DNA of 22,881 bases from a virus: IMG/VR virus record IMGVR_UViG_3300028571_000130, positions 1-22,881 of that record, one strand, 5' to 3'. Position numbers and translations under genes: made by a program. The notes under the pieces were generated by a model that searched no databases, had not been told where the DNA came from, and was given only the letters and a program-made list of their open reading frames with translations. Each line of letters opens with the position of its first letter. The stretch's first letter is position 1. Shown here in pieces: positions 4,626-13,025 of the stretch.

Positions 4626-5004
4626 GGGCCCGACCGGTTTTGACAGGCAAGGGACTCTTTGAAATGATGCAAGCAGTGCTAGTATTGGAAGCACTTTAAT
4701 CACCTATATAAAAAAGTAATCGACGAAATATCGACGTTCACTTTCGAAGACGCTATGGCGTTCGTTAGTGGTGAATATGCAGTAGCTGCTTAGTCACTCC
4801 CGTATCACTCATGGGATTTAAAAAGAAGTGAACGCGAAGGTCTCGTTAGGAGTGCTACCTATAAAAGTGAACTCTCCACCATTAGAAGTGACAATGGCAA
4901 AATAGTAACTTCATATTTTGTTTGTTTAGAAAAACAACACTAAGCTTGTGAATGAGTTAAATTGAGTATTTGTTTGGAAGAGAGTTCGAGTCTCTCCGGG
5001 TCCA
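4626..5004 (+). ncRNA. ssrA: tmRNA (transfer-messenger RNA), phage-encoded
   Basis: The tRNA-like ends are complete: GGGCCCG at 4626-4632 pairs over 7 bp with CGGGTCC ending at 5003, discriminator A at 5004. The third pair is G.U, the alanyl-tRNA synthetase identity element that tmRNAs need. A T-arm GAGAG-TTCGAGT-CTCTC precedes the 3' acceptor strand, and the 5' part has the tmRNA-type GGTTTTGACAGG. The internal reading frame ends GGT GAA TAT GCA GTA GCT GCT TAG, a tag ending GEYAVAA. CCA is not encoded. A pseudoknot-like stem AGTGCT/AGCACT lies before an A-run (about 4707-4712), and several further hairpins follow. The resume codon is uncertain: GGT just before GEYAVAA, or an upstream codon in the same frame. 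Role: frees stalled ribosomes and tags the nascent protein for proteolysis. Own promoter. Confidence 0.95.
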
Positions 5005-5058
5005 CGATATAAGAAAGGTACCTTATATTTATGTTTAACAATTAATAAAAAAAGAAAA

Positions 5059-5459: not shown

Positions 5460-5624
5460 ATGAACAACCTAGATAATACATATTCAATACCACTATACGA
5501 AAATGGTATTAAAACGGAATGGACCATAGATGGTGTAGTTGGAGATGAGAAATACCAAAAATTAGTATCAACCGAAGGTAACCTACCTGAGTTAGTTAAT
5601 GTTACTACAATACAAGCAAAATGA
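5460..5624 (+). CDS. Small protein upstream of thymidylate synthase
   Basis: 54 aa, soluble, no recognised family (starts MNNLDNTYSIPLYENG). Its stop overlaps the thymidylate synthase start as ATGA, so the two are probably translated in a coupled way. Confidence 0.5.
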   Translation: MNNLDNTYSIPLYENGIKTEWTIDGVVGDEKYQKLVSTEGNLPELVNVTTIQAK

Positions 5625-6808
5625 ACAAACTAGATAAACAATACACAGGCCTACTCCAAGACATCTTAGATAATGGAGTAACAAAAGAAACTAGAAATGG
5701 CGGAACAATCAGTATCTTTGGAAGACAAATACGTCATAAAATGAGTGATGGCTTTCCTTTACTTACAACTAAGAAGATGCCTTTTAAAACTATTGTAACT
5801 GAGTTGTTATGGTTCTTACGAGGAGATACTAATATCAAATATTTAGTGGATAATGGTTGTCATATTTGGGATGGTGATGCTTATAAGAGGTATTTATTTA
5901 ACTCAGAGTGGTTTCCAATTTCAAGTGTAAATGGTGGTTTTATTGGGACTAAGGCTGATAGTGATGAAATTATGACACAAGAAGAGTTCATCAACAAAAT
6001 CAAAACAGATGATGAGTTTGCTAAGAAGTGGGGTGAGTTAGGTCCAATTTATGGTAAGCAATGGAGAAGTTGGGAAAATGAAGTTAATTATAGAGATGAG
6101 CAACTTTCAGACAACCACGTAGTTGCTAGTTGGGTTGAAAAAGAAAATATAGACCAAATCCAAAATCTAATCAATGACCTTAAAGGGAATCCAGACAGTA
6201 GACGATTAATGTTTTCAGCTTGGAATGTTGGAGAAATAGATCAAATGGTTCTTCCACCTTGTCATTATGGATTTCAAGTTTATACAAGAGAGTTGAGTGA
6301 ACGAGAACGGATGGATGTATATAACAAATCGAATTGGAACAAAGACATATTTCCAAGCGATGTTAGTGGATGGAATAGATTACTTGACAGTTACAATATC
6401 CCAACCAGAGCAATCTCTTTAATGTGGAATCAACGTTCAGTAGATACATTTTTAGGTTTACCATTCAATATAGCTTCTTATGGTTTACTACTTGAAATCA
6501 TTGCTAAAGCAGTTAATATGGTTCCTGATGAATTAATAGGAAATCTAGGTGATGTACATTTATATATAAATCATATTGTACAAGCAAAAGAACAGATTGG
6601 TAGAGATGGATTTGAATTACCAACACTAAACATTAACACAGAATTTTGGCCATACGAAGGCGGTGAGTGTGGTGAAGGTCCATTAGATGCTATTAAAGTA
6701 TTTGAAGCATTTAAAGATGATAACTTTTGTAAATGTTTATTAGAAGAAGATATCCAATTAAGTAACTATCAATCACACCCAACAATTAAAGCGCCTTTAT
6801 CAAATTAA
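5621..6808 (+). CDS. thyA: Thymidylate synthase (ThyA type), enlarged
   Basis: Makes dTMP from dUMP with methylene-tetrahydrofolate, supplying phage DNA synthesis. Family motifs are clear: TTKK near 49-52, LLWFLRGDTN (62-71), GPIYGKQWR (141-149), PDSRRLMFSAWN (191-202), the active-site LPPCHYGFQ with Cys214, QRSVDTFLGLPFNIASY (271-287), and GDVHLYINH (310-318). At 395 aa it is about 130 residues longer than E. coli ThyA (264). Extra material lies roughly at 93-135, at 155-175 and in a segment after the active site (about 225-262). All catalytic motifs are kept, so it should be active. ATGA overlap with the upstream gene. Confidence 0.97.
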   Translation: MNKLDKQYTGLLQDILDNGVTKETRNGGTISIFGRQIRHKMSDGFPLLTTKKMPFKTIVTELLWFLRGDTNIKYLVDNGCHIWDGDAYKRYLFNSEWFPISSVNGGFIGTKADSDEIMTQEEFINKIKTDDEFAKKWGELGPIYGKQWRSWENEVNYRDEQLSDNHVVASWVEKENIDQIQNLINDLKGNPDSRRLMFSAWNVGEIDQMVLPPCHYGFQVYTRELSERERMDVYNKSNWNKDIFPSDVSGWNRLLDSYNIPTRAISLMWNQRSVDTFLGLPFNIASYGLLLEIIAKAVNMVPDELIGNLGDVHLYINHIVQAKEQIGRDGFELPTLNINTEFWPYEGGECGEGPLDAIKVFEAFKDDNFCKCLLEEDIQLSNYQSHPTIKAPLSN

Positions 6809-11119: not shown

Positions 11120-11650
11120 ATGAAGACAAAAATAATTACAGTAGCGACGCTAATTGTAATTGCATTTGGAATTTTAACTTTAAATAAAAAATGCAATCCA
11201 ACTAATAGTGATCCATACTTGAGAAATGTTGATACGACTGAGATTGTTAATTCTAGTCCATCAATACAAATGTATTTCTTTATTAAGAAGTATGCAGACA
11301 AATATGACATTCCAGAAGCCTATGCGTTTTCTCTAGCTTATCAAGAAACGAGATATCAAGGTCCATTAGATTTGAAGTATAATCATAAACAGAAATCTTA
11401 TGCTGGTGCGTTAGGTCCTATGCAAATAATGCCTGCGACAGCAAAAATGATTAACGGCAAATCAGTGTCAGATCGTAAGCTAAGTTCTGACATTGCTTTA
11501 AATGTAGAAATTTCTATGAAGTTGTTACGTAGGTTACATAACAAGCATAAAAATTGGGGCTTGGTGTTTGGAGCGTATAATACTGGAAGACCTTGCATTA
11601 ATCAATATGCAAGGAATATTTTAAATAAACAGTATAACTGGGTAAGTTAA
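11120..11650 (+). CDS. Lytic transglycosylase (SLT fold), likely endolysin
   Basis: 176 aa. An N-terminal hydrophobic anchor or signal-arrest segment (about 5-21) precedes the SLT domain: catalytic Glu76 in YQETRY, GALGPMQIMPAT (96-107) and GAYNTG (151-156). The family cleaves the MurNAc-GlcNAc bond of peptidoglycan without water, leaving 1,6-anhydroMurNAc. With the holin-like gene at 7280 it is the best candidate for the lysis enzyme, though a virion-associated role cannot be excluded. It ends 8 nt before the tRNA cluster. Confidence 0.9.
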   Translation: MKTKIITVATLIVIAFGILTLNKKCNPTNSDPYLRNVDTTEIVNSSPSIQMYFFIKKYADKYDIPEAYAFSLAYQETRYQGPLDLKYNHKQKSYAGALGPMQIMPATAKMINGKSVSDRKLSSDIALNVEISMKLLRRLHNKHKNWGLVFGAYNTGRPCINQYARNILNKQYNWVS

Positions 11651-11658
11651 TCTAACTC

Positions 11659-11735
11659 GGATCATTAGCTCAGCTGGATAGAGCAACGGTTTTCTAAACC
11701 GTAGGTCTCAGGTTCGATTCCTGAATGGTCTACCA
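11659..11735 (+). tRNA. tRNA-Arg (anticodon TCT), CCA encoded
   Basis: Full cloverleaf: acceptor GGATCAT/ATGGTCT (one G.U at the end, one T.G inside), D-stem GCTC/GAGC, anticodon stem ACGGT/ACCGT around TTTCTAA, T-arm TCAGG-TTCGATT-CCTGA, discriminator A and an encoded CCA. It decodes AGA, a favoured Arg codon in AT-rich genomes. The other tRNAs in the cluster do not encode CCA. Confidence 0.93.
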
Positions 11736-11746
11736 AAAGAAATATT

Positions 11747-11766
11747 AAATTTCCAAAAGGAAATTT
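11747..11766. repeat. Inverted repeat overlapping a promoter -33 box
   Basis: AAATTTCC-AAAA-GGAAATTT, perfect 8-bp arms. The right arm covers three bases of the TTTG of the next promoter, so it could be an operator or a weak hairpin. A degenerate version (ATCC-AAAA-G) precedes the promoter at 13805. Confidence 0.6.
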
Positions 11767-11795
11767 GGTTTATAAAAAGTAATTAATTATATTTA
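11762..11795 (+). promoter_or_regulatory. Phage promoter in tRNA cluster, leaderless type
   Basis: TTTG at 11764-11767, 20-nt spacer, TATATTTA at 11788-11795; GTTT replaces GTAC after the TTTG, as at 13805. The ATG follows after three bases. It can also transcribe the downstream tRNAs. Confidence 0.8.
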
Positions 11796-11798
11796 AGT

Positions 11799-11924
11799 AT
11801 GGGAAGTAAGAAAGCAAATATAGAATGTCTTAAGCAGTGGATGGACACTTTGAAGACTAAGAAAAAAGAAGAAACACGTAAACCTGAAAGACACGTTAAG
11901 TCTAAGGGCTTTCATAAGCGTTAG
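11799..11924 (+). CDS. Very small basic protein inside the tRNA cluster
   Basis: 41 aa, about one third Lys/Arg (starts MGSKKANIECLKQWMD). A highly basic, helical peptide of the kind that binds RNA or ribosomes, but this is composition only. The ATG is three bases after a -7 element, so the mRNA would be leaderless and would run on into tRNA-Glu 13 nt after the stop. Confidence 0.6.
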   Translation: MGSKKANIECLKQWMDTLKTKKKEETRKPERHVKSKGFHKR

Positions 11925-11937
11925 TCTTTTAAAAGAT

Positions 11938-12009
11938 GCTCCGTTCGTCTAGGGGTTAGGACACATCCCTTTCACGGATGAAACACGGGTTCGATTCCCG
12001 TACGGAGTA
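11938..12009 (+). tRNA. tRNA-Glu (anticodon TTC)
   Basis: Acceptor GCTCCGT/ACGGAGT, D-arm GTC...GAC, anticodon stem CATCC/GGATG around CTTTCAC, T-arm CGGGT-family stem with TTCGATT loop, discriminator A. CCA not encoded. Confidence 0.93.
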
Positions 12010-12227
12010 CGCCAATGTGCAGCTGCAACCTGCTAAACGGTGAAGGAGGGTACCCAAGCCTCTGAAAAAGTAGAAACAACATCTCCCCAGTTTCTTGTCT
12101 CGTGCACGGGAAGGATTTATAAGGAGGTTGAGATTGTATAACGTTTATCTTTTGTAATACGACAATAAACAGAAAAAGGTAGTAGTTCGTGGGAGAGCAC
12201 CTACTTTAAAAATAGCGATCCCACCAA
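12010..12227 (+). other. Non-coding stretch between tRNA-Glu and tRNA-Leu
   Basis: 218 nt without a plausible ORF inside the tRNA cluster, so it is transcribed with the tRNAs. It holds GCAGCTGC and GGGTACCC palindromes, a long-range GTGCA/TGCAC match, and TAAGGAGGT at 12120-12128, a perfect Shine-Dalgarno-like sequence with no start codon after it. Its right end (12179-12226) looks like a damaged tRNA. Could be an unrecognised structured RNA or the debris of lost tRNA genes. Confidence 0.5.
12179..12226 (+). pseudogene. Possible tRNA remnant
   Basis: TAGTTC-GTGGGA-GAGC followed by ACCTACTTT is close to the D-arm and 5' anticodon stem of a tRNA-Ala-like gene, and the segment ends in TCCCACCA. 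The anticodon stem does not close properly, and T-arm and 5' acceptor are missing. GTGGGA (12189-12194) can also pair with TCCCAC (12219-12224). Confidence 0.4.
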
Positions 12228-12312
12228 GCTTGGATGGTGGAATAGGTAGACACGCAGGACTTAAAATCCTGTAGCCATTGTGGCTGTGTGGGTTCGATTC
12301 CCGCTCCGAGTA
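12228..12312 (+). tRNA. tRNA-Leu (anticodon TAA)
   Basis: Acceptor GCTTGGA/TCCGAGT, anticodon stem CAGGA/TCCTG around CTTAAAA, a long class II variable arm as expected for Leu, T-arm GTGGG-TTCGATT-CCCGC, discriminator A. CCA not encoded. Reads UUA, the main Leu codon in AT-rich genes. Confidence 0.92.
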
Positions 12313-12324
12313 CTTTTAAATATC

Positions 12325-12398
12325 GCTCCTGTAGCTCATTCGGTTAGAGCAACTGACTCATAATCAGTAGGTGCCTGGTTCGATTCCATGCGGGAGCA
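12325..12398 (+). tRNA. tRNA with anticodon CAT, elongator Met-like
   Basis: Acceptor GCTCCTG/CGGGAGC, D-stem GCTC/GAGC, anticodon stem ACTGA/TCAGT around CTCATAA, discriminator A, CCA not encoded. The C11-type D-stem and absence of three G:C pairs below the anticodon mark it as an elongator; it looks like Bacteroidota tRNA-Met, though an Ile type read with lysidine is possible. The T-stem CCTGG/CCATG has one C-T mismatch. Confidence 0.9.
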
Positions 12399-12407
12399 CA
12401 AATATAT

Positions 12408-12479
12408 AGCGGGTCGGAGAAATGGTAACTTGTTGGGCTCATAACCCAAAGATGGTTGGTTCGATTCCAACACCCGCTA
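12408..12479 (+). tRNA. tRNA with anticodon CAT and initiator hallmarks
   Basis: Acceptor AGCGGGT/ACCCGCT, anticodon stem TTGGG/CCCAA around CTCATAA, T-arm GTTGG-TTCGATT-CCAAC, discriminator A. Three consecutive G:C pairs next to the anticodon loop and A11:U24 in the D-stem are the usual marks of initiator tRNA. The first pair is A1:U72, not the bacterial C1xA72 mismatch. The D-stem is weak (GAGA/ACTT). Either a phage initiator tRNA or a Met tRNA that resembles one. Confidence 0.85.
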
Positions 12480-12655
12480 CTAATAGTAAACCAGCTTCTC
12501 TAAGTGCAAGATTTGTATGTTTATTAACTTAAACATAACCCCTGTATCACTGTAATAAGCACCAAGGTAATAGGTGCAGGAATTAAAAGGATAAGAAAGA
12601 GAGAATAATTAAGGCAGCGATGGCATATACGTTGATCTAACTGGAGCTATTAAAT
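12480..12655 (+). other. Non-coding stretch after the tRNA cluster
   Basis: About 175 nt with no plausible ORF. It has a perfect hairpin TATGTTTA-ttaact-TAAACATA (12516-12537) and a smaller one GCACC/GGTGC (12559-12577). No T-run follows either, so they are not typical terminators. Possibly the structured 3' end of the tRNA precursor or a small RNA. Confidence 0.45.
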
Positions 12656-12707: not shown

Positions 12708-13025
12708 ATGAAAACACAATTAATGATTGCAGGTCTTGCAATAGCTTTATCTAGTTGTTCAGTTGATAAAGAAATTATCAGTAAATCTGAATTTGTAAAA
12801 TGGTCAACAAAAAATGATACCATATTCTATAATAACAAGCCAGCAGCATATTATGATCACTCAGAATATGAATTGAATCCTGGACACGGTAAGTATGCTA
12901 AGCCAATTCAAGAGTTGTCTATTACTCAATTAAGTTTTGATGTTAAGACTGATGAGTTAATTAAATTTGTGCATACTCTGCACCCTAGACAAAAAGTAGA
13001 AATAGTTGTTCCACGTCATTATTAA
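12708..13025 (+). CDS. Predicted lipoprotein
   Basis: 105 aa. Signal sequence with lipobox LSSC (Cys17), then a polar domain of about 88 residues with no recognised family. Predicted to be lipid-anchored in the host envelope, where phage lipoproteins often block superinfection or serve lysis; neither is shown here. It starts 17 nt past the promoter's -7 element. Confidence 0.72.
   Translation: MKTQLMIAGLAIALSSCSVDKEIISKSEFVKWSTKNDTIFYNNKPAAYYDHSEYELNPGHGKYAKPIQELSITQLSFDVKTDELIKFVHTLHPRQKVEIVVPRHY

Follow-up and report, generated by a model that had tools for sequence, protein, structure and literature searches.

Bacteria tell their initiator tRNA from elongators by a textbook feature, the 1:72 mismatch, and a phage tRNA gene that combines initiator hallmarks with an A1:U72 pair raises the question of which class it belongs to and what it would do during infection. 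The window (the whole stretch of DNA analyzed, 22,881 bases) is the linear IMG/VR virus record IMGVR_UViG_3300028571_000130, a fragment of an uncultured phage with about 33% GC, whose ORFs include thymidylate synthase, ATP-dependent DNA ligase, a Clp-type head maturation protease, UvdE, a holin-like ORF, and an SLT lysozyme. The features considered here are:

4626..5007, plus strand, tmRNA gene (Rfam RF00023, 78 bits; ARAGORN)
11120..11650, plus strand, SLT-domain lysozyme, bordering the variable tRNA spot on its upstream side
11659..11735, plus strand, tRNA-Arg(UCU), CCA encoded (ARAGORN)
11938..12010, plus strand, tRNA-Glu(UUC) (ARAGORN)
12069..12126, plus strand, conserved, structured RNA lying within the tRNA array, a hairpin with a self-complementary UGCA loop (pattern scan, alignment)
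12228..12313, plus strand, tRNA-Leu(UAA) (ARAGORN)
12325..12398, plus strand, second CAT tRNA, of tRNA-Ile2 type, reading AUA after lysidine modification (C4:G69, C5:G68; nearest neighbours)
12408..12479, plus strand, initiator-type tRNA-Met(CAU) with A1:U72, no encoded CCA (ARAGORN, Rfam, direct reading)
12708..13025, plus strand, small lipoprotein-like ORF that borders the tRNA spot on its downstream side and is conserved in the relative L005

Since the window carries a tmRNA, the host is a bacterium. The window has few Shine-Dalgarno motifs (2/39 starts) and low GC, and most of its tRNAs lack CCA, which together lean weakly to Bacteroidota; the Bacteroidota promoter motif, used as a host test, was not enriched in the window.

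Anatomy and class of the tRNA at 12408

A tRNA with anticodon CAU was called at 12408-12479/80 by both ARAGORN and Rfam RF00005 (57.7 bits, E 2.7e-10), and reads AGCGGGT.CG.GAG.AAATGGTAA.CTT.G.TTGGG.CTCATAA.CCCAA.AGATG.GTTGG.TTCGATT.CCAAC.ACCCGCT.A. The end pair A1:U72 lies at 12408:12478, A73 at 12479, A11:U24 at 12418:12430, and G29-31:C39-41 at 12435-12437:12445-12447, with the anticodon (12440-12442) in a CUCAUAA loop; position 8 is C (12415) in place of U, and 13:22 is AxA, two features that the original prediction did not mention. The minor formylation determinants G2:C71, C3:G70, G4:C69, and A73 are all present. Among 4,438 bacterial initiators, A11:U24 was reported in 4430 and the GGG/CCC anticodon stem in 3849, while this stem occurred in only two elongator Met and one Ile2 tRNAs; A11:U24 was seen in no elongator Met or Ile2 tRNA at all, these almost always having C11:G24 (PMC5143459). 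The initiator hallmarks that the original prediction had named are read directly from the DNA and, given the published counts, are not due to chance.

The CAU anticodon with a paired 1:72 is usual in elongators, and a diverged elongator Met or Ile2 tRNA was therefore weighed; this class is practically out of the question, being refuted by A11:U24 and GGG/CCC where an elongator tRNA-Met or tRNA-Ile2 would have C11:G24, and by best identities to sampled genome CAU tRNAs of 84.7% for initiators, only 70.8% for Met elongators, and 66.7% for the Ile2 type. Judged by its sequence, 12408-12479 is a real tRNA of the bacterial initiator type in every feature but the 1:72 mismatch, and as it carries A1:U72 instead, we class it as an initiator-type variant and not as a canonical tRNA-fMet. 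With bacterial tRNA-fMet it has in common CAU, the three G:C pairs, A11:U24, G2:C71, C3:G70, G4:C69, A73, and the bacterial T loop, and it differs in A1:U72 for the mismatch, C8 for U8, A13xA22, and its location in a phage contig. The likeness to eukaryotic and archaeal initiators proposed earlier agrees with the literature for A1:U72 (PMC6412873) and extends to G29-31:C39-41; unlike them, the phage tRNA has A11:U24 and a TTCGATT T loop in a contig whose tmRNA indicates a bacterial host, whereas archaeal and eukaryotic initiators lack A11:U24, their rule being the absence of R11:Y24 (PMC9976931).

For the unmodified sequence, a structure other than the cloverleaf is the better predicted fold (-25.5 vs -20.2 kcal/mol), and so it is, with smaller margins, for several members of the C8 clade described below; since the cloverleaf was missed for several otherwise well-supported copies, the minimum free energy fold alone was not taken as evidence.

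The neighbouring CAU tRNA

The tRNA at 12325 had been taken for the Met elongator. Its acceptor (GCTCCTG...CGGGAGC) contains C4:G69 and C5:G68, which in a CAU tRNA are TilS determinants, and its best identity is 82.4% to genome Ile2-type tRNAs vs 73.0% to Met elongators, two classes split by an acceptor-stem sequence rule only; the nearest genome tRNAs form the GGTCCTA..CTGA-CTCATAA-TCAG class. It is therefore of the Ile2 type, and AUA is used at 23.6 per 1,000 codons in the window ORFs. An elongator or Ile2 assignment with host relatives carrying the same stem, named in advance as the outcome that would count against an initiator, was accordingly found for 12325 and not for 12408. Because 12325 is Ile2-type, the array in this fragment, as read from sequence, would comprise an initiator-type and an Ile2-type tRNA and no elongator-type Met tRNA.

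The 1:72 pair in bacteria and viruses

In the published bacterial set the 1:72 mismatch is found in 98.6% of initiators by the source's own figure; of the 4,438, none has A1:U72, the only Watson-Crick pair being U1:A72 (63), along with nine U.G (PMC5143459). A pattern for A1:U72 initiators, which demands GCG/CGC at 2-4/69-71 together with GGG/CCC and would therefore miss other initiator forms, gave no true cases in 395 Bacteroidota genomes and no matches in 349 Pseudomonadota genomes. Three matched places in two of the 395 Bacteroidota genomes were C1xU72 tRNAs read two bases out of register.

The same pattern matched 69 viral stretches, and 20 distinct A1:U72 tRNAs, a set chosen by this pattern, then passed strict initiator rules, which removed many matches that were other tRNAs, non-tRNAs, or register shifts. 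These 20 include one from a relative of the window phage (L004/L347), with the tRNA directly 3' of the homologous lysozyme gene. The initiator-type tRNA of Vibrio phage D479 (L275) is also A1:U72. Matches labelled 'Acinetobacter phage MD-2021a' (L487, CAKLQF020000005.1) were set aside, as the contig looks bacterial, with secG and with identical copies of an initiator tRNA gene in tandem.

In a viral sample unselected on 1:72, the pair was formed in 13/57 distinct strict initiators (6 U:A, 5 U.G, 1 G:C, 1 A:U), compared with 0/84 and 0/25 strict initiators in the genome samples; the Fisher test of 13/57 vs 0/(84+25) gives p 3e-7, which is only a guide since hosts were unmatched, copies are non-independent, and prophages may be present among the viral stretches. 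As A1:U72 occurs in phages and in none of the bacterial initiators examined or the published 4,438, a feature of the initiator tRNA that is normally guarded appears to be drifting in phages.

A clade of viral initiator-type tRNAs with C8

U8 was present in 134/134 genome initiators and in 75/76 of the viral sample, and 12408 has C8. A pattern scan found this C8-type initiator tRNA in 11 viral stretches, and contigs of the clade span 29-64% GC, with L330, from a 64% GC contig, as a looser member. Across the 11 distinct aligned copies, C8, A13, A14, A15, and U7:A66 are invariant, as are 50 of the 72 columns, and 19 of the 20 stem pairs are formed in every copy. Changes on both sides of a pair were counted at eight of the 20 pairs, 1:72 among them, a number reached in 0/500 shuffles and with every slid control far worse; the compensatory changes fall in the acceptor, anticodon, and T stems. 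Only 1:72 breaks, being AxA, UxU, or CxA in 7/11 copies and A:U or U:A in 4/11, and never G:C, C:G, or wobble. The intact pairs, the compensatory changes, and the confinement of breakage to 1:72 argue for a tRNA maintained as such and not a pseudogene. Thus only 1:72, the end that marks bacterial initiators, seems free to vary in the clade, with the limit that it stays weak. The window gave no protein match to the short stretches fetched around the clade tRNAs. In E. coli tRNA-Cys, an A13.A22.A46 arrangement is known, and the A13xA22 of the 12408 type, with A46, recalls it.

Proposed role and competing explanations

We favor, with a probability of about 0.6, the reading that 12408 is a phage-borne initiator-type tRNA supplementing the host initiator in infection. 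The gene would be transcribed together with its tRNA array, the precursor trimmed by host enzymes, and CCA, which is not encoded, added by the host; host MetRS would charge the tRNA through CAU, host Fmt would formylate the charged form, and the three G:C pairs would place it in the ribosomal P site. Phage copies would obey a looser rule than 'mismatch at 1:72', namely 'no strong pair at 1:72', with which A1:U72 complies. The phage could benefit by influencing translation start, as the original prediction suggested. Formylation in E. coli depends chiefly on the 1:72 mismatch, its major determinant, and earlier mutant work makes it plausible that Fmt tolerates a weak 1:72 pair. Here the formylation elements G2:C71, C3:G70, G4:C69, A73, and A11:U24 are kept, with the major one replaced by a weak pair, so that formylation of the weakly paired tRNA, also proposed at the outset, is plausible and fits the clade pattern. 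Counted against the favored reading are this loss of the mismatch determinant, the non-cloverleaf fold, the relative L005, which is without the gene, and the listing of A1-U72, in tRNA-Trp, as an antideterminant against E. coli MetRS that depends on its context.

The main rival to an initiator supplement is a dual-use Met tRNA, whose closed A1:U72 end would lower formylation, part of the Met-tRNA then going to EF-Tu and elongation. A single base change reportedly enabled the initiator of E. coli to act in elongation in vitro (Seong and RajBhandary, 1987), and the array contains no elongator-type Met tRNA, 12325 being Ile2-type. A precedent is the single human mitochondrial tRNA-Met, which serves as initiator and elongator with partial formylation (PMC7949028), and resembles 12408 in its paired 1:72, though as a G1-U72 wobble and of organellar origin. 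We consider dual use unlikely: the window is a fragment, so that a Met elongator may sit elsewhere; the three-G:C anticodon stem is strictly conserved in the clade; and relatives with a mismatched 1:72 retain every other feature, so pairing is not the trait under selection. Less probable still is a passenger drifting without function. Fast turnover of the tRNA spot between close relatives, and departures from the bacterial norm at 1:72, position 8, and 13:22, are what drift might leave, but it accords poorly with compensatory changes in the acceptor, anticodon, and T stems, with 50/72 invariant columns, and with clade members in contigs of 29-64% GC that have no protein match to the window.

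Toxins that target initiator tRNA exist, and the altered copy might be less open to host attackers of tRNA-fMet, such as VapC-like nucleases or AtaT-like acetylases. AtaT activity falls when 1:72 is altered, to about 20% of the wild-type level for A1-C72 (PMC7595197), and A1-U72 reduces CdiA-CT cleavage in the context of tRNA-Gln (PMC9071432). Evasion nevertheless seems very improbable, because 12408 keeps the usual anticodon loop, CTCATAA, at which a loop-reading nuclease would cut as before, because no such toxin has been described for the host, and because 1:72 varies among relatives without pattern. More broadly, phages might keep a separate initiator lineage under the 'no strong pair' rule, with A1:U72 copies being dual-use or evading mismatch-reading host enzymes, a proposal that we regard as tentative and rather doubtful.

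Phage initiator-type tRNAs as such are already known: they are frequent in IMG/VR, and a tRNA-fMet has been annotated in Erwinia Eneladusvirus (PMC7760394). Others occur in Lak-B1, with U1xU72 unlike 12408, and in Vibrio phage D479, which shares A1:U72 and differs in U8, U73, and an encoded CCA. What is new is the A1:U72/C8 form; in a literature search that mostly lay outside subscription journals, no discussion of phage A1:U72 or C8 initiators was found. The eukaryotic and archaeal form of the end pair recurs in phage initiator tRNAs that are otherwise well maintained. Such naturally occurring variants can serve to test which elements of initiator identity are indispensable, and they open to experiment the question of what phages gain from carrying initiator tRNAs.

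The tRNA spot and a conserved RNA element

Between the lysozyme gene and the lipoprotein-like ORF, ARAGORN gave the order Arg(UCU), Glu(UUC), Leu(UAA), CAU at 12325, and CAU at 12408. At this lysozyme-adjacent spot (window 11659-12480), each relative compared (L002, L003, L004, L005, L008) has a different tRNA set, and the spot is a fast-changing tRNA hot spot between close relatives. L005 (181 kb), the closest of the large syntenic relatives, lacks both CAT tRNAs at the corresponding spot, and the A1..U72 pattern gave a single match in its whole contig, not initiator-like; the tRNA gene at 12408 is therefore dispensable. In other viral stretches (L020, L028, L271, and also L019, L026, L260), neighbouring initiator-like tRNAs occur in pairs, both with A11:U24, one with a GGG/CCC anticodon stem and the other with AGG/CCU or UGG/CCA; in L020, L028, and L271 the GGG-stem copy is of the C8 type.

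Inside the array, the element at 12069-12126 (AGTAGAAACAAC..AAGGAG) recurs with little change in distant phages, within a wider conserved stretch (12020-12126, reaching 12226 in L005). It was found in 22 viral stretches by pattern scan, several copies lying in or beside tRNA arrays, with no Rfam match above chance, no INPHARED match, and none in 99 Bacteroidota genomes; it may be a new RNA family. A five-pair hairpin with the UGCA loop is formed in 16/16 distinct aligned copies, an alignment that leaves out a variant with a CGCG loop, and four of the pairs show changes on both sides. GAAA:UUUC and CUCC:GGAG are invariant in the aligned copies; a pseudoknot between them could form but lacks support. 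Near the element, repeated tRNA-like genes were seen in L491, L494, L496, L499, L502, L504, L506, and L509, in which the acceptor and T arm stay constant (AGTCAGG..GGTTCGAATCCTGTCCTGACTA) and the middle varies; many were not called by ARAGORN, and one lies at L005:12560-12630.

Elsewhere in the window, the predicted tag of the tmRNA at 4626-5007 (VNSPPLEVTMAK) looks wrong, and the tmRNAs of the related L005 and L024 give ordinary tags. In L008 (163-2067), the thymidylate synthase gene is split by an insert whose 240-aa ORF has a NUMOD1 domain, of the homing-endonuclease type, where an Rfam search gave no intron match; unlike it, thyA of the window (5621-6808) is unsplit.
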